Below are positions 8,908-34,960 of a DNA stretch of 64,000 nt, piece after piece. The notes beneath the pieces are model-generated. The model saw nothing but the letters and a program-made list of their open reading frames with translations, made no database searches and was not told where the DNA came from. The DNA lies in contig PHAB01000014.1 in the NCBI GenBank assembly GCA_002840275.1, positions 1-64,000 of the forward strand, read 5' to 3'. How positions within the stretch are numbered: position 1 is the first letter of the stretch; each line of letters begins with the position of its first letter. This DNA comes from Firmicutes bacterium HGW-Firmicutes-14. Its GTDB lineage: Bacteria; Bacillota; Thermincolia; Thermincolales; UBA2595. The translations under genes and the position numbers were made by a program.

Positions 8908-10230
8908 TCATTTGATATTATCCCTTTTTTCCAGTCTTTTCTTGATTTCCTTCTCAAGGCCGCTGTCACTGGGTATATAGTACCTGGTTCCTTTCAACTC
9001 ATCAGGCAGATACTGCTGTTCGACGTAGCTGCCATCAAAGTGGTGCGGGTACTTGTAACCTTGCCCATGGCCCAATTTTGACGCCCCTTTATAATGGGAA
9101 TCCCTCAGGTGGGGAGGGACATCTCCGGGGTTCTTCTTTTCGATGTCACTCAAGGCCCCGTCTATGGCCTTAATAACTGCATTGCTTTTTGGAGCCGTAG
9201 CAATATAAACAGCCGCTTCAGCCAAAGGCAGCCGGGCTTCCGGCATACCCACATATTCCAGGGCATGGGCGGCTGCCATGGCCACAACGAGGGCATTAGG
9301 GTCGGCCATGCCCACATCCTCGGCCGCATGGACAATCATACGCCGGGCTATAAACCTGGGGTCCTCCCCGGCATAGATCATCCGGGCCAGCCAGTGAATC
9401 GCAGCATCGGGATCTGAGCCTCTAAGGCTCTTGATAAAGGCTGATATTACGTCATAGTGCCGGTCGCCGGCTTTATCGTACCTGACGACTCTTTTCTGTA
9501 TGGATTCTTCCGCCACTTCTACAGTTATTTCGCGAACCCCTTCCTGATTCGGGGGAGTCGTAAGGACAGCAAGTTCGATGGCATTCAGAGCAGACCGGGC
9601 ATCCCCGTTCGCTATATCCACAATGTGGTTAAGGGCTTCCTCTTTTAAATCCACTGAATACCGGCCCAGCCCGCGCTCTTCGTCATTAATCGTTCTTCTG
9701 ATCAGACCGGCGATTTCCCGGTCGGTCAGATTCTTAAACCCAAAAACCCTTGACCTGGAAAGAAGCGGCGGGTTAACTTCAAAATATGGATTTTCCGTTG
9801 TAGCCCCTACAAGAATTACTGTTCCGTCTTCTACAAAAGGCAGCAGTGCGTCTTGCTGAGATTTATTAAACCTGTGGATTTCATCAATAAACAGTATTGT
9901 CCTCTGGTTATACATTCCCAGCCGGTCCCGGGCGTTTTTAACAACCTCTTTGATATCGGCCACACCGGAAATAACGGCATTAAGCTGCTCGAAAAAGGCC
10001 TTCGTTGTATTTGCAATAACTTTAGCCAGGGTTGTCTTCCCTGTGCCGGGAGGACCGTAAAAGATAACTGAAGAAAGCTGGTCGGCTTCAATAGCCCGCC
10101 TCAGCAGCTTCCCTTTACCGACAATGTGTTCCTGTCCGACAAACTCAGCCAGTGTGCGTGGGCGCATTCGCACTGCAAGGGGCGCTTCTTTTTTCATTTT
10201 CTCCTGTCTGCTTGCTTCAAACAAGTCCAT
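8908..10230 (-). CDS. rarA: Replication-associated recombination protein RarA (MgsA)
   Basis: A 440-residue clamp-loader-like AAA+ ATPase that acts at stalled replication forks. The Walker A GPPGTGKTT and Walker [20 protein letters not shown] are present, followed by the sensor GATTENP and the C-terminal tetramerisation region ending in HFDGSYVEQQYLPDEL. I start at MDLFEASRQEKM (10230), which has GGAG 8 nt upstream; a longer ORF would cross a strong hairpin. Two notable palindromes lie in its leader. Confidence 0.95.
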   Translation of the reverse strand: MDLFEASRQEKMKKEAPLAVRMRPRTLAEFVGQEHIVGKGKLLRRAIEADQLSSVIFYGPPGTGKTTLAKVIANTTKAFFEQLNAVISGVADIKEVVKNARDRLGMYNQRTILFIDEIHRFNKSQQDALLPFVEDGTVILVGATTENPYFEVNPPLLSRSRVFGFKNLTDREIAGLIRRTINDEERGLGRYSVDLKEEALNHIVDIANGDARSALNAIELAVLTTPPNQEGVREITVEVAEESIQKRVVRYDKAGDRHYDVISAFIKSLRGSDPDAAIHWLARMIYAGEDPRFIARRMIVHAAEDVGMADPNALVVAMAAAHALEYVGMPEARLPLAEAAVYIATAPKSNAVIKAIDGALSDIEKKNPGDVPPHLRDSHYKGASKLGHGQGYKYPHHFDGSYVEQQYLPDELKGTRYYIPSDSGLEKEIKKRLEKRDNIK

Positions 10231-10252
10231 TTTCTCATCTCCAGTTTTGTCT

Positions 10253-10295
10253 AGAAAAGCGCGCATATTGCAGTTCCCTATGCGCGCGCTTTTCT
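10253..10295 (-). repeat. Strong hairpin in the rarA leader
   Basis: AGAAAAGCGCGCATA and TATGCGCGCGCTTTTCT form an imperfect inverted repeat around an 11-nt loop. On the minus strand it ends GCGCGCTTTTCT, resembling an attenuator or terminator, and lies 23 bp before the rarA start. Confidence 0.6.
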
Positions 10296-10312
10296 GTACT
10301 ACATTCCTTAAC

Positions 10313-10334
10313 CTTTTCCACACATGTGGAAAAG
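10313..10334 (-). promoter_or_regulatory. Palindrome upstream of rarA, candidate operator
   Basis: CTTTTCCACA and TGTGGAAAAG are perfect 10-bp arms separated by CA. It lies about 80 bp before rarA, between the trxA terminator and the leader hairpin, where the rarA promoter must be. No matching regulator is identified. Confidence 0.4.
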
Positions 10335-22267: not shown

Positions 22268-22717
22268 TTAAAACTGCTTTTTGCTGTCCAGAAGGATTGT
22301 AACAGGCCCGTCATTTATGATCTCTACCGTCATCATTGCCTGAAACCGTCCAGTGCTGACAGTAATTCCGTTACTCTCCAGTTTTGCACAAAACCTGTTG
22401 TACAGCAGTTCGGCGTTGTGGGCAGGAGCGGCTTCGGTAAAATTAGGTCTCCGTCCTTTCCGGCAGTCACCGAAAAGTGTAAACTGGGAAACCGCCAATA
22501 CCCCTCCCCCGATGTCCCTGACCGAGAGATTCATTTTCCCGCCGGCATCTTCAAAAATCCTCATGTTGGATACTTTTTCTGCCATATAGTCTGCATCATC
22601 TTCGGAATCGTCGCGGCCGACCCCCAACAGAACAACCAGGCCCCGGCCAACTGACCCGATTTTTTCGTTTTCTACGGTCACCGAACCCCTGATAACCCTC
22701 TGTAACACAGCCCTCAC
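22268..22717 (-). CDS. dtd: D-aminoacyl-tRNA deacylase
   Basis: A 149-residue DTD that removes D-amino acids (and glycine mischarged to tRNA-Ala). The start [21 protein letters not shown], the [17 protein letters not shown] core and the C-terminal [11 protein letters not shown] (the GlyPro chiral gate) are all present. The start is GTG after AAAAGGAGG. It lies 50 bp after relA, the usual Gram-positive order. Confidence 0.96.
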
Positions 22718-22767: not shown

Positions 22768-24933
22768 TTATACCCTTGGTGTAACTCGCCAGACATCATA
22801 GATATCACTTATGCGCCTGATTTTACTCATAATATGTTCCAACTGGTCAAGACCGTGAACCTCAAGGACAAGGTCAATGGTGGCCATCCTGTTCTTGGTG
22901 CCCCTGGCATTAACCCAGTCAGCACTTATCTTCATTTCTGAGAGGACAGTCATAACATCATTAAGGAGCCCTGCCCTGTCCATGGCCGAAACTTCCAGGT
23001 GGACATGATAAGAACCCTTATCAGCCTCGTCCCAGGAAACCTCAATCATTCGCTCCTCATCGCCAAGGGTGTGATGTACCACATTACGGCAATCTTTCCT
23101 GTGGATAGATACCCCCCGGCCCCTGGTGATATACCCGACAATCGGGTCACCCGGTACCGGGTTACAGCACCTGGCCAGGCGGATAAGGACATCCTCCTCG
23201 CCTTTAACGATAACACCTGTTCCTGAGCGGGGTCTCCTCTTCCTGGGTTCCTTTGCCAGTATTTCTTCAATATTCAGGACCTTGTCTTTTTTTGTATCAT
23301 CCCTTATCCTGGCAATAACATTCTGAGGTGTGACAACCCCCATACCTATCGCCACATACAGGTCATCAGTTGAAACAAAATTCATCTTTTTGGCTATTTT
23401 ACTTAAGCCTTCGGCCTTCACGAATTCCGCTGGTTCATCATATCCCTGTTTCCGGAGTTCTTTCTCAAGATAGTCCCTGCCTTTTAGCAGGTTCTCTTCC
23501 CTGTTTTCCCTCTTAAACCATGACCTTATCTTACTCCTGGCCTCCGATGTCTGGACCAGATTCAACCAGTCCCTGCTTGGACCGTTAGCCTGTTTCGTTG
23601 TTATTATTTCCACAATGTCCCCGTTTTTAAGCCTGTAATCCAGGGGCACAATTTTCCCGCTGACCTTGGCGCCGACGCACCTATGCCCAACCTGGGTGTG
23701 AATCCTATAGGCAAAATCAATGGGCACTGAATCCCTTGGCAGTTCTACCACATCCCCCTTGGGAGTGAATACAAAAACTGCATCTGAGAAAAGGTCGATT
23801 TTCAGGGTTTCCATAAACTCCCTGGCATCACCCATATCATTCTGCCATTCCAGGAGCTGCCGCAGCCAGGAAAGCTTTTGTTCAAATTCCTCGTCTCCCC
23901 CTGTCCCTTCTTTGTACCGCCAGTGAGCTGCGATTCCATATTCAGATGTCCTGTGCATTTCCCATGTCCTGATTTGGATCTCCAGGGGTTCTCCCTGAAG
24001 CCCGATAACAGTAGTATGAAGTGACTGGTACATATTTGACTTAGGCATGGCAATATAATCCTTGAACCTGCCGGGAACAGGTTTCCAGAGGGTGTGTATC
24101 ATTCCCAGCGCGCCATAGCAGTCTTTAACACTGTCTACCAGAACACGGATAGCCGTCAGGTCAAATATTTCATTAAGTTCCTTTTTCTGTTCCTGCATCT
24201 TTTTAAAGATGCTGTAAAAGTTTTTGGGTCTGCCCTGAATTTCCGCATTGATACCGACTGATTCCAGTTTATCTTTAAGAATATTTATGACATTCTTTAT
24301 ATAGGCTTCCCTCTCAGCCCTTTTCTTGGCAATGGATTCTACAAGCTCATAGTATTTTTCCGGCTCCAGATATCTCAGGGCCAGATCTTCCAATTCCCAT
24401 TTCAGTTTATATATTCCCAGGCGATGGGCTAATGGGGCAAAAATTTCGATGGTCTCGAAAGCAATCTCCTTTTGTTTGCTCTCCTTCATATATTTGAGTG
24501 TCCTCATATTATGGAGCCGGTCTGCCAGCCTAATGAGGATTACCCTTATATCTTTGGCCATAGCCAGGAACATTTTGCGCAGGTTGTCAACCTGCTGTTC
24601 CATCTTGCTCTTATATTCTATACGGCTCAGCTTGGTAACCCCATCTACCAGCAGGGCAATCTCTGAACCGAAATCTTCTTCAATAGATTCCAGGGGAATA
24701 TCGGTATCTTCCACAACATCATGGAGAAGCCCGGCTGCAATAGTAACCACATCCAGTTCCAGATTGGCCAGAATAAAGGCCACACTAAGGGGATGCTGTA
24801 TGAAAGGTTCGCCCGACACCCGCTGCTGGCCCTCATGGGCTTTGGCCGCAAATTCATACGCATTCCTGAGTAAATCACCATCTACATCAGGAGTATATTT
24901 TTTTACCTCGGCCACTAACTTGTCAATCTTCAC
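22768..24933 (-). CDS. relA: Bifunctional (p)ppGpp synthetase/hydrolase
   Basis: A Rel protein of about 721 residues: HD hydrolase ([12 protein letters not shown]...[11 protein letters not shown]), synthetase ([12 protein letters not shown]-type motif, [16 protein letters not shown]), TGS ([22 protein letters not shown]), a zinc-finger-like region ([23 protein letters not shown]) and a C-terminal ACT domain. Both catalytic halves look intact. I prefer the GTG at 24933 ([12 protein letters not shown]), which follows GGGAAGG by 5-6 nt; an ATG at 24972 would add 13 residues. It is 67 bp after recJ. Confidence 0.95.
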
Positions 24934-25000
24934 ACAGGCACCTTCCCTTAATGATGTTTTCACTAAAATCATGTTCTTTATACCTTAACTTAATATTATA

Positions 25001-28000
25001 TCACAAATTCCCTTGCAATGGTGGAGAAGCCTGATGTTCTAAATAGCCGGCCGGATATATGGGTCTGTTGATACACTGAAGCAGTTCTTCAACTGCCGCG
25101 TCAAAGAAGTAATCCTCGAATTCCTTTAAAGCGCGTTTTTCTTCCTGTCCTTCCATAAACCTTATAGACCGGTCAGTACCGATTTTTTCTTCAGGGGCAG
25201 GCAGGAGGTAAATGTGCCTGTACCTGCCCAGGGATTCCCTTTGGATAAGTTCCATTTCTTCCAGTATTCCCAGACCGGAAGAAACCAGATTAGGCCTGGC
25301 AAATTTTACGCCTGCTTTTTTCAGCAGACCTGCTATTTCATCATTGGTTGATGTAATGGGATGCAGTTTAAATGACATTTCCCTCAAAATAACATAAAGC
25401 CTTGCCAGGGTATCCCTGTCAGGAGAAGATGCGTCCAAAATAAACCTGTTGATTGCCGCATCGCGCCTGCCGCATAACAGGTGGATCTTTGCGGGGCTGC
25501 CGTCCCGGCCGCACCTCCCGCACTGCTGATTGAATTCCGTAAAATTAAAGTTAAGGTGAAATACCACAATATGTTTTACATCAGGTATGTCAATTCCTTC
25601 CCCAAAAGCAGAAGTTGAAACAACAGATGTAACCGTTCCGTTCCGGAACATTCTCTCAATAGTATTCCTTTGTTCGGAATTAAGCCCGGCATGATAAAAT
25701 ACTACCTGGCTGTTCATCCCGGGCAGTGTCTCCCGGAGCATGGCCGCAAGTTCCACTGTCTGCAGGCGGCTGTTCACATATATAATTGTCTTTTCCCCGG
25801 AACCGACCACATTCCTCAGGTATCCGTTCTTATCCGGCCAGTCCCTTTTATCTATCAATTGAAGATTCTGCCTCACATGAGGGTCAATTACCACTTTCTC
25901 TATATCCAGCACAGAGATGATTTCACCGGCCACTTCATCGTCAGCTGTTGCCGTTACGGCCATCACCGGCGGGTTCCCCAGGTCTTGCACCAGCCCTTTC
26001 AGCCGCTTGTAAACCGGCCGGTGGGCCTGGGATGCCAACCCGATATGGTGGCTCTCATCCACAACGAAAAGCCCTGTCTTCCTGTCTGTATTCCTGATTT
26101 TTTCCATATGACAGGCGACAAATTCCGGTGTAGTCAATAGAACATCCAGGCCTCCCTTATTGAGGGCATCAAAAAGCAGTACCTTTTCGGTGTCAGATAT
26201 TGACCCGTTCCCCTTATAAACCCGTAACCCCAGGCGTCCCAGGCGGGCAGACATGCTGTCAAACTGGTCGTTAACAAGCGCCCTGAGGGGATAGACAATA
26301 ACTGTCATCTCCCTGTTTCCCAGAGCCTTTAGAGCAGCCACCGATTGAAAAACTGCCGATTTCCCGCGGCCGGTCCCGAATATAGCAAGGGTATTATGTC
26401 CCAACAGGACATGTTCCATGGCCTCAACCTGTTTTTCCCGGTAAGAATAGCCTCCCAGAAGGGTTTCCCTTACCCGTTCCCTCAGTTCGTTATAAGGCAG
26501 TCCGGAAAGTCTTTCCCGCAAATCCGGCACCTGTTCCAGGCCTTCCCCCGGCAATGCCCCGCTGACCTTGCGGATAATTATATTTACCCCGTAATTCCTG
26601 TCACTGCCGCCGGTTACCTGAGAAACATAAGCCGAATAAGATTCACCTTTATCCAGAAGGGGTGCAAAATGCCCGGCCAGCCTGGCATTTAAGTATCCCA
26701 CCTGGATACCCTCCCCGGTCTCCACCTTCACGGCATTCGAATCATGAGGATTTCCCGGCTCCCGGACCAGGTCCAGTCTCTCACCGGCAGCCAGACCTGC
26801 TGCAACTGTTTGCCGGTCATCATAGGTAACCCCTGCCACTTTAGAATAAAATTCTTCCTTATCACCTATGTTTCTATAATAATCATCAGTAAGGTATACC
26901 GGCGCTTTATTGAACAGTTCCTCGATAAATACACTGTCCGCATCCGGTATTTCCGCATCCGGTCCGGTTGTCCCGGCACACCAGGATGAAGGTCTGAAGT
27001 CTTTTACATTTAACTGAAGAGACTCCCTGCCGTTCCACTCATTCATTTCCAGGGTAAACACCAGGTCAAAAAATCTCTCTCCGGCAAGAATCTCCTTGTA
27101 CTGCCCCAGGTTGAACCCTATGGCCTCCTGTACCTTACGGCCGTCCCTTACCCGAAATTTCAGATGGGAACCGTCAGAACCCACTGCCCGGTATTCCGGC
27201 ACAGTGATTCCCCGGGCTGCCAGGACCGGCTCAGGGTTGTCACATCCGTAAGGACCCATCATCTCCAGGTGTTTTAACAGCCTGCAGTCAAGCTGGTCCA
27301 ATTCCACACTAATATCAATATGTATTTCAGGCAGCAGGTCTTCCTCCTTAAGCGCCTGGTCAGCATACCTGTTTATATCTTCCCTGAAAAGAGTAATCCT
27401 GTCTGCCTGCATAGTCAGCCCTGCTGCCTGCCTGTGCCCGCCGTACCTGGTCAGGTGACTGTCATTGTGCTGAAAAGCATCAAATATATTAAATGCCGGT
27501 ATGCTCCTGGCCGAACCTTTGGCTGTCTCACCTTCAATACTCAAGAGTACCACAGGCCTGTGAAAATCCTGGACCAGTTTGGATGCCACAATACCAATTA
27601 CTCCTAAGTGCCATCCCTCCCCGGCCATGACAATCACCTTTTCCCGTTGAAGGTCAATGTCCCCGGACTCAATGGCCTGAAGAGCCTCTTTATAAATTTC
27701 CGCCTCAATACCCTGCCTCTCCTCATTCAATGCACATAACTCAGCAGCCAGGGATGAAGCCTCTTCTTCACTGTCAGTCAGAAGCAATCGCACTCCCAAG
27801 GCAGCATCACCCAGCCTGCCCGCCGCATTGATGCGGGGAGCCATCTGAAAGGCCAGCTGCCGCACACTGAGCGGTCCCGGACCTATGCCGCAGTGCTCCA
27901 TTAAGGCCCTTAGACCGGCAGAACGGGTTTGCCCCAGAATGCCAAGGCCTTTTTTTACCAGGGCGCGGTTTTCTCCCTTTAAGGGCACAATGTCAGCAAC

Positions 28001-28702
28001 GGTGCCCACACATACCAGTTCAATCAGGGCGGTAAGCAGGTCTTCAGGTTGACTTTCCGGGGCGTGTCTCAGGAGGGCTTGGGCCAGTTTGAGGGCTACT
28101 CCGACCCCGGCCAGGTCTTTAAATGGATAGTTACAGTCCTTTTGTTTTGGGTTAATAACCGCTAAAGCGGCGGGGATCTGATGTGAAGGTTCGTGGTGGT
28201 CTGTTATCACCACATCGACCCCCAGCCTGTTGGCATATTCCACCTCATCCAGGGCGGAAATCCCGCTGTCAACGGTAACAACCAGTGAAATACCGTCATG
28301 ATGAGCCTTGAGTACGGCATGCATATTCATACCGTAACCTTCGGTCAACCGTTCAGGTATGTAATAATCAACATCGGCGCCCAGCCCTTTCAAGACCTTC
28401 ATCAAAACGGTTGTGCCGGTAATACCGTCCACGTCATAATCACCAAAAACACGTATCTTTTCACCGTTCCCAATGGCCATGCTTATGCGTTCAACTGCCG
28501 CGGACATATCCTTCATCAGTAGCGGGTCATAAAACATGTCCGCCTGTTCTGACAGGAAGTCCCTGGCCTCATCCACGGTGGTAATCCCACGGTTTATAAG
28601 AATCTGGGCGGCAATCTTTGACAGGCCCAGCTTTGAACTGATTATCTCCTGGAGAACCGGGTTGGGTTTTGGAATGCGCCAAATCTTATGTTTACCGGTC
28701 AT
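25001..28702 (-). CDS. recJ: RecJ exonuclease fused to HIRAN and RecQ-like helicase domains
   Basis: A 1233-residue fusion. Residues 1-570 are RecJ, the 5'-3' single-strand exonuclease, with DYDVDG (88-93), TVDSG (143-147), DHH (168-170) and RYGGHRQAAG (419-428). Residues about 615-712 resemble a HIRAN domain (VAGVTYDDRQ..., LVREPGNPHDSNAVKV, VGYLNARLA). Residues 745-1100 form a superfamily 2 helicase: GTGRGKS (776-782), VDESHH (881-886), TATA (917-920), FYHAGL, STSAFGEGIDIPDV and QQCGRCGRDG (1059-1068). Usual RecJ is 550-800 residues. The single frame is uninterrupted. In place of separate RecQ and RecJ, one chain could unwind and resect. Confidence 0.92.
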   Translation of the reverse strand: MTGKHKIWRIPKPNPVLQEIISSKLGLSKIAAQILINRGITTVDEARDFLSEQADMFYDPLLMKDMSAAVERISMAIGNGEKIRVFGDYDVDGITGTTVLMKVLKGLGADVDYYIPERLTEGYGMNMHAVLKAHHDGISLVVTVDSGISALDEVEYANRLGVDVVITDHHEPSHQIPAALAVINPKQKDCNYPFKDLAGVGVALKLAQALLRHAPESQPEDLLTALIELVCVGTVADIVPLKGENRALVKKGLGILGQTRSAGLRALMEHCGIGPGPLSVRQLAFQMAPRINAAGRLGDAALGVRLLLTDSEEEASSLAAELCALNEERQGIEAEIYKEALQAIESGDIDLQREKVIVMAGEGWHLGVIGIVASKLVQDFHRPVVLLSIEGETAKGSARSIPAFNIFDAFQHNDSHLTRYGGHRQAAGLTMQADRITLFREDINRYADQALKEEDLLPEIHIDISVELDQLDCRLLKHLEMMGPYGCDNPEPVLAARGITVPEYRAVGSDGSHLKFRVRDGRKVQEAIGFNLGQYKEILAGERFFDLVFTLEMNEWNGRESLQLNVKDFRPSSWCAGTTGPDAEIPDADSVFIEELFNKAPVYLTDDYYRNIGDKEEFYSKVAGVTYDDRQTVAAGLAAGERLDLVREPGNPHDSNAVKVETGEGIQVGYLNARLAGHFAPLLDKGESYSAYVSQVTGGSDRNYGVNIIIRKVSGALPGEGLEQVPDLRERLSGLPYNELRERVRETLLGGYSYREKQVEAMEHVLLGHNTLAIFGTGRGKSAVFQSVAALKALGNREMTVIVYPLRALVNDQFDSMSARLGRLGLRVYKGNGSISDTEKVLLFDALNKGGLDVLLTTPEFVACHMEKIRNTDRKTGLFVVDESHHIGLASQAHRPVYKRLKGLVQDLGNPPVMAVTATADDEVAGEIISVLDIEKVVIDPHVRQNLQLIDKRDWPDKNGYLRNVVGSGEKTIIYVNSRLQTVELAAMLRETLPGMNSQVVFYHAGLNSEQRNTIERMFRNGTVTSVVSTSAFGEGIDIPDVKHIVVFHLNFNFTEFNQQCGRCGRDGSPAKIHLLCGRRDAAINRFILDASSPDRDTLARLYVILREMSFKLHPITSTNDEIAGLLKKAGVKFARPNLVSSGLGILEEMELIQRESLGRYRHIYLLPAPEEKIGTDRSIRFMEGQEEKRALKEFEDYFFDAAVEELLQCINRPIYPAGYLEHQASPPLQGNL

Positions 28703-32824: not shown

Positions 32825-33706
32825 TCAGGCCCTTCCTCTTTCCATCCCTTTAAATACTACCCACATGGGGCTGGCATTGAAAATTGATGAATATGCGCCA
32901 CTGATTACTCCTATTAACAGCGCCATTGTAAATGTTTTGATGGTTGCTCCGCCAAAGATCAACAGGGCCGCCAGAACAAAGATAACTGTCAAAACCGTAT
33001 TGATGGACCGCACCATGGTCTGGAGAATACTGTTGTTGACCAGGGTCTCCAGGTCTTCCCCCTTCTTACGCCTGTTCAGGTTTTCCCGGATTCTGTCAAA
33101 AATGACAATGGTATCATTGATGGAATACCCGATAATGGTCAGGATTGCCGCAACAAAGGCGCTGTCCACCTCCCACCAGAATATTGAGAAGAATCCCAGG
33201 GTGATAAAGACATCGTGCAGAAGGGCTATGATAGCCGCTATACCAAACCTGAATTCAAACCTGAAGGTAATATAAATAACCATCAGGACCGAAGCAAGGA
33301 GCAAGGCCAGAATGGCGTTTCTGGTAAGTTCCTTCCCGATTACAGGCCCAACCTTGTTAATTTGAAGTTTACCCGCATCATATGTGCCTACTTTCTTACT
33401 TAATGTATCAAGTATGTTTTGCTGTTGCTCGTCTCCCAGCACCGGTGTCCTGATAATGGCAGTCCTTTTCCCGAAAAGCTGAATAGGAGTCTTTTCCAGC
33501 TTGAATTCCTTCAATACATTTCTTATCTCAGCCACAGTAATGTCTTTCTTGAATTCTATGTTTATAATACTGCCTCCGGTAAAGTCTATTCCCAGGTTTA
33601 ACGGTGTTCCTACAGTGGTCCACCGGAAAATCATTGTTATTAATCCAGGGATTATGACTAACAGGGATATGGCAAACCACAATTTGCGTCTTCCAACTAT
33701 ATTCAC
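32825..33706 (-). CDS. secF: Protein translocase subunit SecF
   Basis: A 293-residue inner-membrane RND-like protein with six membrane helices. It begins with RRKLWFAISLLVIIPGL, contains LGIDFTGGSIINIEF in the first extracytoplasmic domain, and has the conserved TM4-6 block (YSINDTIVIFDRIRENL). With SecD it uses the proton/sodium gradient to complete export. The GTG at 33706 is chosen because GGAGGTGG is 5-6 nt upstream; a GTG at 33715 overlaps that site. 12 bp after secD. Confidence 0.95.
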   Translation of the reverse strand: MNIVGRRKLWFAISLLVIIPGLITMIFRWTTVGTPLNLGIDFTGGSIINIEFKKDITVAEIRNVLKEFKLEKTPIQLFGKRTAIIRTPVLGDEQQQNILDTLSKKVGTYDAGKLQINKVGPVIGKELTRNAILALLLASVLMVIYITFRFEFRFGIAAIIALLHDVFITLGFFSIFWWEVDSAFVAAILTIIGYSINDTIVIFDRIRENLNRRKKGEDLETLVNNSILQTMVRSINTVLTVIFVLAALLIFGGATIKTFTMALLIGVISGAYSSIFNASPMWVVFKGMERGRA

Positions 33707-33718
33707 TCCATCCACCTC

Positions 33719-34960
33719 CTATGCCCCGAACAGTTTCGTGTTCTTTACTCCGGAATCGACAACCAGTCTCAAAAGCCACCTGGTCAGGGTGACAGCCGTA
33801 AACATGCTTGACAGGATACCTATGCTTAATGTTATGGCAAATCCCCTGACAGCGCCGGTTCCGAAGTAGTAAAGCACCGCAGCCGCAATCAGGGTAGTGG
33901 TATTGGCATCGAGAATCGTTGTAAAGGCCCTGGAAAACCCTGCCTCAATTGACCTGCGCAGGGAATTGCCTTCCCTTATTTCTTCCTTCAGCCTTTCAAA
34001 GATTATGATATTGGCATCCACCGCCATACCTATTGACAGCAGGAATCCGGCGATACCCGGCAGGGTCAGGGTGGCATTAAGGGCAGCCAGTATTCCCAGG
34101 ACCAGGAACATGTAGACCACAAGGGTAATGTTCGCAATAACACCGGGAAGCCTGTAAAAGCCAATCATGAAAAGGAGTATAATTACTATACCGATAATCC
34201 CTGCTTTGCTTGATTTAGCCAGGGAATCTGCCCCCAGGGTAGGGCCGACTGACTGAACCGCCACCTTCTCCAGTTTGACAGGCAGGGCGCCTGACCGGAG
34301 CAGTATGGCATCACCGTTGGCCGCCTTGAGGTCCTCATACCCGCCGGATATTTCGGCCCCTCCCGTAGTTATGGCCTCTTTGACCATCGGAGCTGTAAGC
34401 ACCTCTTCATCCAGCATGATAGCTATAATCCGCTTTGGGTCCTCAGGGTTCGGGTATTTATTAACAATTTCCGTTGTCGCCTGGGCAAACTTTTTCTGGC
34501 CCTCGGGATTAAATTCCAGGGCAACATAGGGCTGATTATTGTCAGGTCTGGTCGCAGCCTGGGCATTTTTCAGATCCTGACCTGTAAGGACCAGTTTGCC
34601 GTCAGCGGTAACAAACTTCAGCTGGGCTGTCCGGCCGATCATATCAATAGCTTCCTGGGTATCCTTGACCCCTGCCAGCTCAACAATGAGCCTTCGGGAA
34701 CCTTCTTTTTGAATAAGGGGTTCCTTAACCCCGGTCTGGTTTACCCGGTTTTCTATAACGGCTTTAACCCGATCGATGGAATCAGGCGTAACCGGGGCTT
34801 CAGGGGTATCCACAGCCTCCAGGACCACATGCACACCGCCCTGCAAGTCCAGACCCAGGTTAATATTATTCTGGAAAACCTTAAAATAAATCATCAGAAA
34901 CCCGCCGATTCCCACTATTGTTAAAACAGAAATAAGTATTGCAAGACTCCTGGACCTCAT
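33719..34960 (-). CDS. secD: Protein translocase subunit SecD
   Basis: A 413-residue protein with one N-terminal helix, the P1 region (NNINLGLDLQGGVHVVLEAVD), and five C-terminal helices with GMAVDANIIIFERLKEEIREG. It lacks the larger insertions of Proteobacterial SecD, as usual in Firmicutes. AAGGAGG lies upstream. Forms the queA-tgt-yajC-HD-secD-secF cluster. Confidence 0.96.
   Translation of the reverse strand: MRSRSLAILISVLTIVGIGGFLMIYFKVFQNNINLGLDLQGGVHVVLEAVDTPEAPVTPDSIDRVKAVIENRVNQTGVKEPLIQKEGSRRLIVELAGVKDTQEAIDMIGRTAQLKFVTADGKLVLTGQDLKNAQAATRPDNNQPYVALEFNPEGQKKFAQATTEIVNKYPNPEDPKRIIAIMLDEEVLTAPMVKEAITTGGAEISGGYEDLKAANGDAILLRSGALPVKLEKVAVQSVGPTLGADSLAKSSKAGIIGIVIILLFMIGFYRLPGVIANITLVVYMFLVLGILAALNATLTLPGIAGFLLSIGMAVDANIIIFERLKEEIREGNSLRRSIEAGFSRAFTTILDANTTTLIAAAVLYYFGTGAVRGFAITLSIGILSSMFTAVTLTRWLLRLVVDSGVKNTKLFGA

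Follow-up and report, generated by a model that had tools for sequence, protein, structure and literature searches.

A RecJ nuclease fused to HIRAN and RecQ-like helicase domains in a Firmicutes bacterium, and probable remnants of the same helicase in other RecJ tails

Introduction

In resection, RecQ and RecJ cooperate as two distinct proteins, for example in Escherichia coli. RecQ moves 3'-to-5' and RecJ degrades 5'-to-3'. A 64,000-nucleotide stretch of contig PHAB01000014.1 from Firmicutes bacterium HGW-Firmicutes-14 (the window) contains a gene that appears to join both activities, which raises the questions of whether the joint is genuine, how old it is, and how it relates to the C-terminal tails of other RecJ proteins. 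Our literature searches retrieved no description of a RecJ-HIRAN-helicase fusion, no account of the origin of the tail family PF10141, and no function for the conserved RecJ tail.

Results and discussion

Domain organization

The gene occupies positions 25001..28702 of the minus strand, on which the conserved neighbors described below also lie. Its open frame starts with ATG and encodes 1233 residues with zero internal stops, as an earlier sequence-only reading of this DNA had described. The product is confirmed as one chain in which a complete RecJ is followed by HIRAN and by an SF2 helicase of RecQ-like type. By sequence, the front of the chain is related to RecJ in the PDB and the back to RecQ.

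The RecJ core (residues 28–569; 26996..28621) is formed by the Pfam domains DHH (residues 82–234, E 5e-28), DHHA1 (residues 355–447, E 7e-15), and RecJ_OB (residues 462–568, E 2e-30). The NCBIfam recJ model TIGR00644 matches the protein with 585–588 bits (E 1e-175), above its cut-off of 396.9. The DxDxDG, DHH, and GGH motifs are present in 114 of 115 RecJ proteins, the window protein included, which bears out the earlier claim of full RecJ motifs. This part of the chain is a predicted 5'-to-3' single-strand exonuclease. The window protein thus has the full DHH-DHHA1-OB nuclease of the RecJs of Bacillus subtilis, Staphylococcus aureus, and Deinococcus radiodurans, together with its motifs, and adds an intact C-terminal helicase, whereas the RecJs that have been studied end without a tail, with PF10141, or with the Deinococcus tail.

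The HIRAN domain (residues 617–693; 26624..26854) matches PF08797 with an E-value of 2e-13 and 50.3 bits against a cut-off of 24.7. Pfam thereby confirms a module that had been placed at about residues 615–712, with slightly tighter limits. The helicase begins with RecA1 (residues 738–935; 25898..26491), which contains a DEAD match (residues 756–924, E 3e-20) and is recognized by a RecQ profile at 99.8%. RecA1 carries the Walker A motif GTGRGKS (residues 776–782; 26357..26377) and the motif II DESH (residues 882–885; 26048..26059). RecA2 (residues 936–1090; 25433..25897) contains a Helicase_C match (residues 960–1068, E 3e-22) and motif VI, QQCGRCGRDG (residues 1059–1068; 25499..25528). The motif table places all three motifs where the sequence-only reading had put them, and SF2 motifs I, II, III, V, and VI are all present. 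The C-terminal domain is winged-helix-like (residues 1091–1225; 25028..25432), with a helix-helix-strand-strand arrangement in the AlphaFold model. Both RecA2 and the winged helix have counterparts in the HMM series described below, in which RecA2 is retained in many decayed RecJ tails.

Genomic context and distribution

The host genome comprises 3.65 Mb in 67 contigs. A TIGR00644 profile search of the whole genome found no second RecJ, and the window gene is the sole RecJ; the suggested search for separate recQ and recJ genes thus yielded one full RecQ, with 475 bits, on another contig. AddA is also present. Since a separate full RecQ and AddA are retained, the fusion replaces neither. Two stand-in roles were rejected on a wider sample: a substitute for absent RecQ, because the host genome and 6 of 10 scanned intact-fusion genomes have a separate full RecQ, and a substitute for absent AddAB, because AddA-type matches occur in 22 of 29 intact-fusion and 19 of 26 other genomes, with no association. 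Several genomes have RecQ and AddA alongside the fusion, which makes a need for it less evident.

The gene is preceded by the conserved upstream neighbors secF and secD (32825..34960; TIGR00966, TIGR01129, and synteny). Downstream lies relA/spoT (22768..24972; TIGR00691, 834 bits), which adjoins recJ in nearly all related loci, and near it is the conserved neighbor dtd, for D-aminoacyl-tRNA deacylase (22268..22717; TIGR00256 and synteny). The order secDF-recJ-relA-dtd is shared by almost all of 40 related loci, whether the RecJ tail is intact, dead, remnant, or missing. Because it is conserved whatever the state of the tail, the window gene is the orthologous housekeeping recJ.

The window also contains sporulation genes (SpoIID, PdaA-like), which together with the Gram-positive AddA point to Bacillota as the phylum, and, at 8908–10323, an ordinary RarA/MgsA-type AAA+ ATPase close to the hisS-aspS genes. 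Two more HIRAN matches (L002 and L003) lie on other contigs of the host genome; the frames that contain them are 505 and 129 aa long, and both lack a helicase.

The order nuclease-HIRAN-helicase, previously called unusual, is not a one-off. All genomes of the window's class with a complete gene carry the fusion, with helicase identities of 58–71%. A search for the same architecture in 398 genomes sampled from the phylum found it with intact helicase motifs in 29, which belong to 11 family codes and include the one-contig genome G320. The Walker A form GRGK[ST] is present in 29 of 29 intact fusions, and HIRAN was not detected in two of the 29 (L203 and L206). In the searched contigs of named relatives, RecJs were all tail-less or short-tailed, with no fusion. 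Plasmid and phage collections gave partial RecQ-type matches only, with an identity of at most about 33% among the matches listed.

The helicase and HIRAN domains

The window helicase shares with RecQ (TIGR01389, TIGR00614) SF2 motifs I–VI, 26–32% identity over the helicase core, and the modeled fold. The AlphaFold model obtained for the tail has a mean pLDDT of 82, and its best structural matches are RecQs (E 3e-23); together with the Pfam HIRAN and helicase matches, this answers the earlier proviso that either fold might be missing. However, the window protein stays below the cut-offs of both NCBIfam RecQ models, with 189 bits (cut-off 640) and 180 bits (cut-off 220). The aromatic-rich loop following motif II was not found in the window helicase (DESHHIGLASQAHRP, compared with DEAHCISQWGHDFRP in the host RecQ), and it is absent or deleted in the fused helicases. 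The four-cysteine zinc site after motif VI was looked for in the fused helicases and not found, and the RecQ profile has no match to the fused winged helix alone. In the helicase tree, the fused helicases form their own clade apart from RecQ, with a support of 100/99. Given the lack of an aromatic loop and a zinc site and the separate clade, we call the fused helicase RecQ-like and not RecQ. The original description of a complete SF2/RecQ-like helicase, to which the DEAD and Helicase_C matches correspond, was right in this respect. The cysteine-bearing motif VI had also been singled out as unusual. It is confined to the window's family, and other fusions have QQSGR[AV]GRDG or QL[AS]GRAGR[DN]; the cysteine is a family-level variant only.

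The HIRAN profile matches the HIRAN structures of HLTF (E 3e-12), and the NPxD loop is conserved. The HIRAN domain of HLTF binds single-stranded DNA and forks, with N90, N91, Y93, and Y72 as DNA-contact residues (PMC4666394). In the fusion HIRAN, the asparagine of NPxD is retained, the position of Y93 is occupied by H, F, or Y, and the Y72 region lies outside the local alignment. As in HLTF/Rad5-type proteins, an NPxD-loop HIRAN is joined to an SF2 motor; unlike in those proteins, the motor is RecQ-like and not SWI/SNF, there is no RING, and the motor is joined to a nuclease.

Proposed mechanism

We hypothesize that HIRAN locates the 3' end of a single strand where there is a gap or a stalled fork and loads the motor there. 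The helicase would then travel 3'-to-5' on that strand into the duplex, and RecJ would degrade the displaced 5' strand 5'-to-3', in the same direction of travel as the helicase. Given the polarities of RecQ and RecJ, motor and nuclease would advance together on opposite strands, and 3' single-stranded DNA would be left for RecA. The two predicted activities are those of the E. coli RecQ and RecJ pair, and their expected polarities are compatible; the proteins are separate in E. coli and form one chain in the window, the host of which also retains RecQ. The RecJ tail of Deinococcus likewise couples the nuclease to a motor, as its C-terminal domain, which is reported there to be without a defined homolog, binds HerA (PMC4663267); the tail of the window protein is itself a predicted motor.

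It is also possible, if rather unlikely, that the fused ATPase is not a processive unwinding helicase but an HLTF-like DNA translocase or conformational switch, which acts by remodeling forks or by positioning and licensing RecJ. Such a role would be in line with the match of HIRAN to HLTF, the absence of a zinc domain, and the absence or deletion of the aromatic loop, which in RecQ is required to couple the ATPase with unwinding. Catalytically dead tails are, moreover, maintained under selection (see below), which suggests a further role for the tail besides that of a motor. However, SF2/RecQ motifs I to VI and the winged helix are all retained, and the structures closest to the model are RecQs. 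The loss of HIRAN from the intact fusions L203 and L206 also speaks against this alternative, as it implies that HIRAN is not obligatory.

We therefore favor the reading, which we regard as quite probable, that the gene is an ordinary recJ with an old HIRAN-helicase fusion, that a 3'-to-5' motor feeds RecJ, and that decay elsewhere leaves a PF10141-type tail. Helicase activity, polarity, and coupling to RecJ are what we infer from these domains, and because the RecQ aromatic loop is missing, this applies in particular to unwinding strength and polarity. The self-contained unwind-and-degrade machine proposed by the sequence-only reading fits the motifs in 29 genomes, the purifying selection, and the RecQ-fold model, with its activity being predicted.

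RecJ tails as probable decayed helicases

HMMs of RecA2 and the winged helix derived from the intact fusions find, without iteration, homologues at the same place in other RecJ tails. Iterated HMMs detect RecA2 in 69 and the winged helix in 93 of 95 RecJ tails at E≤1e-4, and 0 of 1020 shuffled tails match at E≤0.01. The tails differ in the extent of reduction. L076 and L079 retain most of their length, but neither Walker A nor motif VI survives in them (APLGIEAKS, STAVVDISA; EQCWIAGVDG). In L056, L093, and many others, RecA2 and the winged helix remain. In Bacilli-type tails, the winged helix is recognizable and RecA2 is eroded, and some RecJs have the winged helix alone or no tail. L056 is positioned beside the intact L077 with 99% support, and L076 among the intact L072–L075. 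These close pairs show what is probably recent helicase loss within one family.

A profile of the decayed tails alone matches SF2 RecA2 domains in the PDB (Hera, 1e-10; RecQ, 4e-8; WRN, 2e-7), and two groups of decayed tails are recognized at 93% and 95% by a RecQ profile made independently. These matches indicate that the unexplained tail on many related RecJs is probably a worn-down remnant of the same helicase. Bacilli-type tails correspond to PF10141 (E 3e-67), which is colinear with RecA2 and the winged helix of the window helicase but has lost RecA1, Walker A, and all catalytic motifs. We regard it as improbable that the similarity is spurious and that the most reduced RecJs carry in PF10141 a domain with no relation to the helicase. 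That alternative draws on the lack of direct helicase matches: the RecQ profile matches Bacilli-type tails at 3.7%, which is no direct match, and a profile search of the PDB with the two most reduced tail groups found no helicase. The AlphaFold model of the Bacilli-type tail (pLDDT 87) has alternating strands and helices, and Foldseek ranks S. aureus RecJ 8y30 first, followed by weak SF2 matches only. However, PF10141-type tails match the entire fused RecA2 and winged helix colinearly at 93.8% (E 2e-7), compared with less than 1% for controls. PF10141 matches the intermediates L084 and L093; within the decayed set, Pfam assigns PF10141 to two members and Helicase_C to six. Bacilli-type tails also match three RecA2-bearing intermediate groups at 96–98%. 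For the most decayed tails, the proposed link from PF10141 to the helicase rests on such intermediates. Most other RecJs of the phylum, those of the S. aureus type with PF10141 included, thus appear to bear a decayed helicase as a tail.

The dN/dS of intact tails is 0.07–0.21, about equal to that of their RecJ cores. Decayed tails have a dN/dS of 0.12–0.33, mostly about twice that of their cores and far below 1, and are apparently relaxed yet still constrained. We propose that the helicase decayed repeatedly in most of the phylum, first through the loss of its ATPase motifs and then through that of entire domains, and that the RecA2 and winged-helix remnant, including PF10141, persists as a non-catalytic, selected element that probably binds DNA or a partner.

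In genome G155, the RecJ-borne helicase is dead, and an intact free-standing HIRAN-helicase of 648 aa (L209:7343-9289) is encoded elsewhere on the same one-contig chromosome. Its locus is the same DNA as the IMG/VR viral contig locus L212 and also bears genes for a partition protein, SSB, and PAPS reductase. The two G155 helicases pair in the tree at 93/72, a grouping to be read with caution for long branches. Some genomes have a second RecJ besides that of the secDF-relA locus, such as L141 of G155, which has 788 aa and a long branch. In L153 (genome G132, contig C47), a frame of 1640 aa appears to be a further helicase fusion, in which an N-terminus resembling an exonuclease is joined to a RecQ-type helicase and another P-loop segment.

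A probable single old fusion

For the 29 intact fusions, the tree of the RecJ cores and that of the helicases have 21 of 26 splits in common; 500 permutations gave a mean of 0.2 shared splits and a maximum of 2. The agreement of the trees points to a single old fusion and vertical inheritance. The mean tree distance is 1.55 for the helicases and 2.41 for the nuclease cores, and the intact motor thus appears to be under stricter conservation than the nuclease.

Several independent helicase-RecJ fusions, with the short tails as a separate domain family, would account for the scatter of intact helicases over the RecJ tree, which entails 8 changes, 6 of them forced by starred branches. We nevertheless consider this very improbable, since all intact fused helicases form one clade apart from RecQ, the shared splits tie that clade to the RecJ tree, the fusion junction is the same, and decayed and intact sisters occur within one family (L056/L077 and L076/L072–L075). 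In L056, moreover, the linker that precedes HIRAN is still present and leads directly into RecA2, which is suggestive only; in a search for linker scars, L056 and L076 alone stood out, yet not above the best shuffle. An assembly error joining two adjacent genes, the other proviso of the sequence-only reading, has nothing in its favor and practically no probability; like chance, it is refuted by the presence of the same gene in 29 genomes, the single-contig G320 among them, and in every genome of the class whose gene is complete.

Implications

It is likely that, early in its history, the RecJ of this phylum was a chimera of nuclease and helicase like that of the window, that the C-terminal domains of most of its present RecJs, including PF10141 of the S. 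aureus type, are pseudo-helicases that arose as the motor was lost repeatedly, and that the window's family is among the lineages in which the machine is still complete. Here a RecQ-like motor and RecJ share a single chain, arranged in a manner suited to strand hand-off, so that their coupling can be tested directly. The graded series from a live helicase to a bare remnant is seen inside one orthologous gene, and it offers an origin and a testable role for the conserved RecJ tail.
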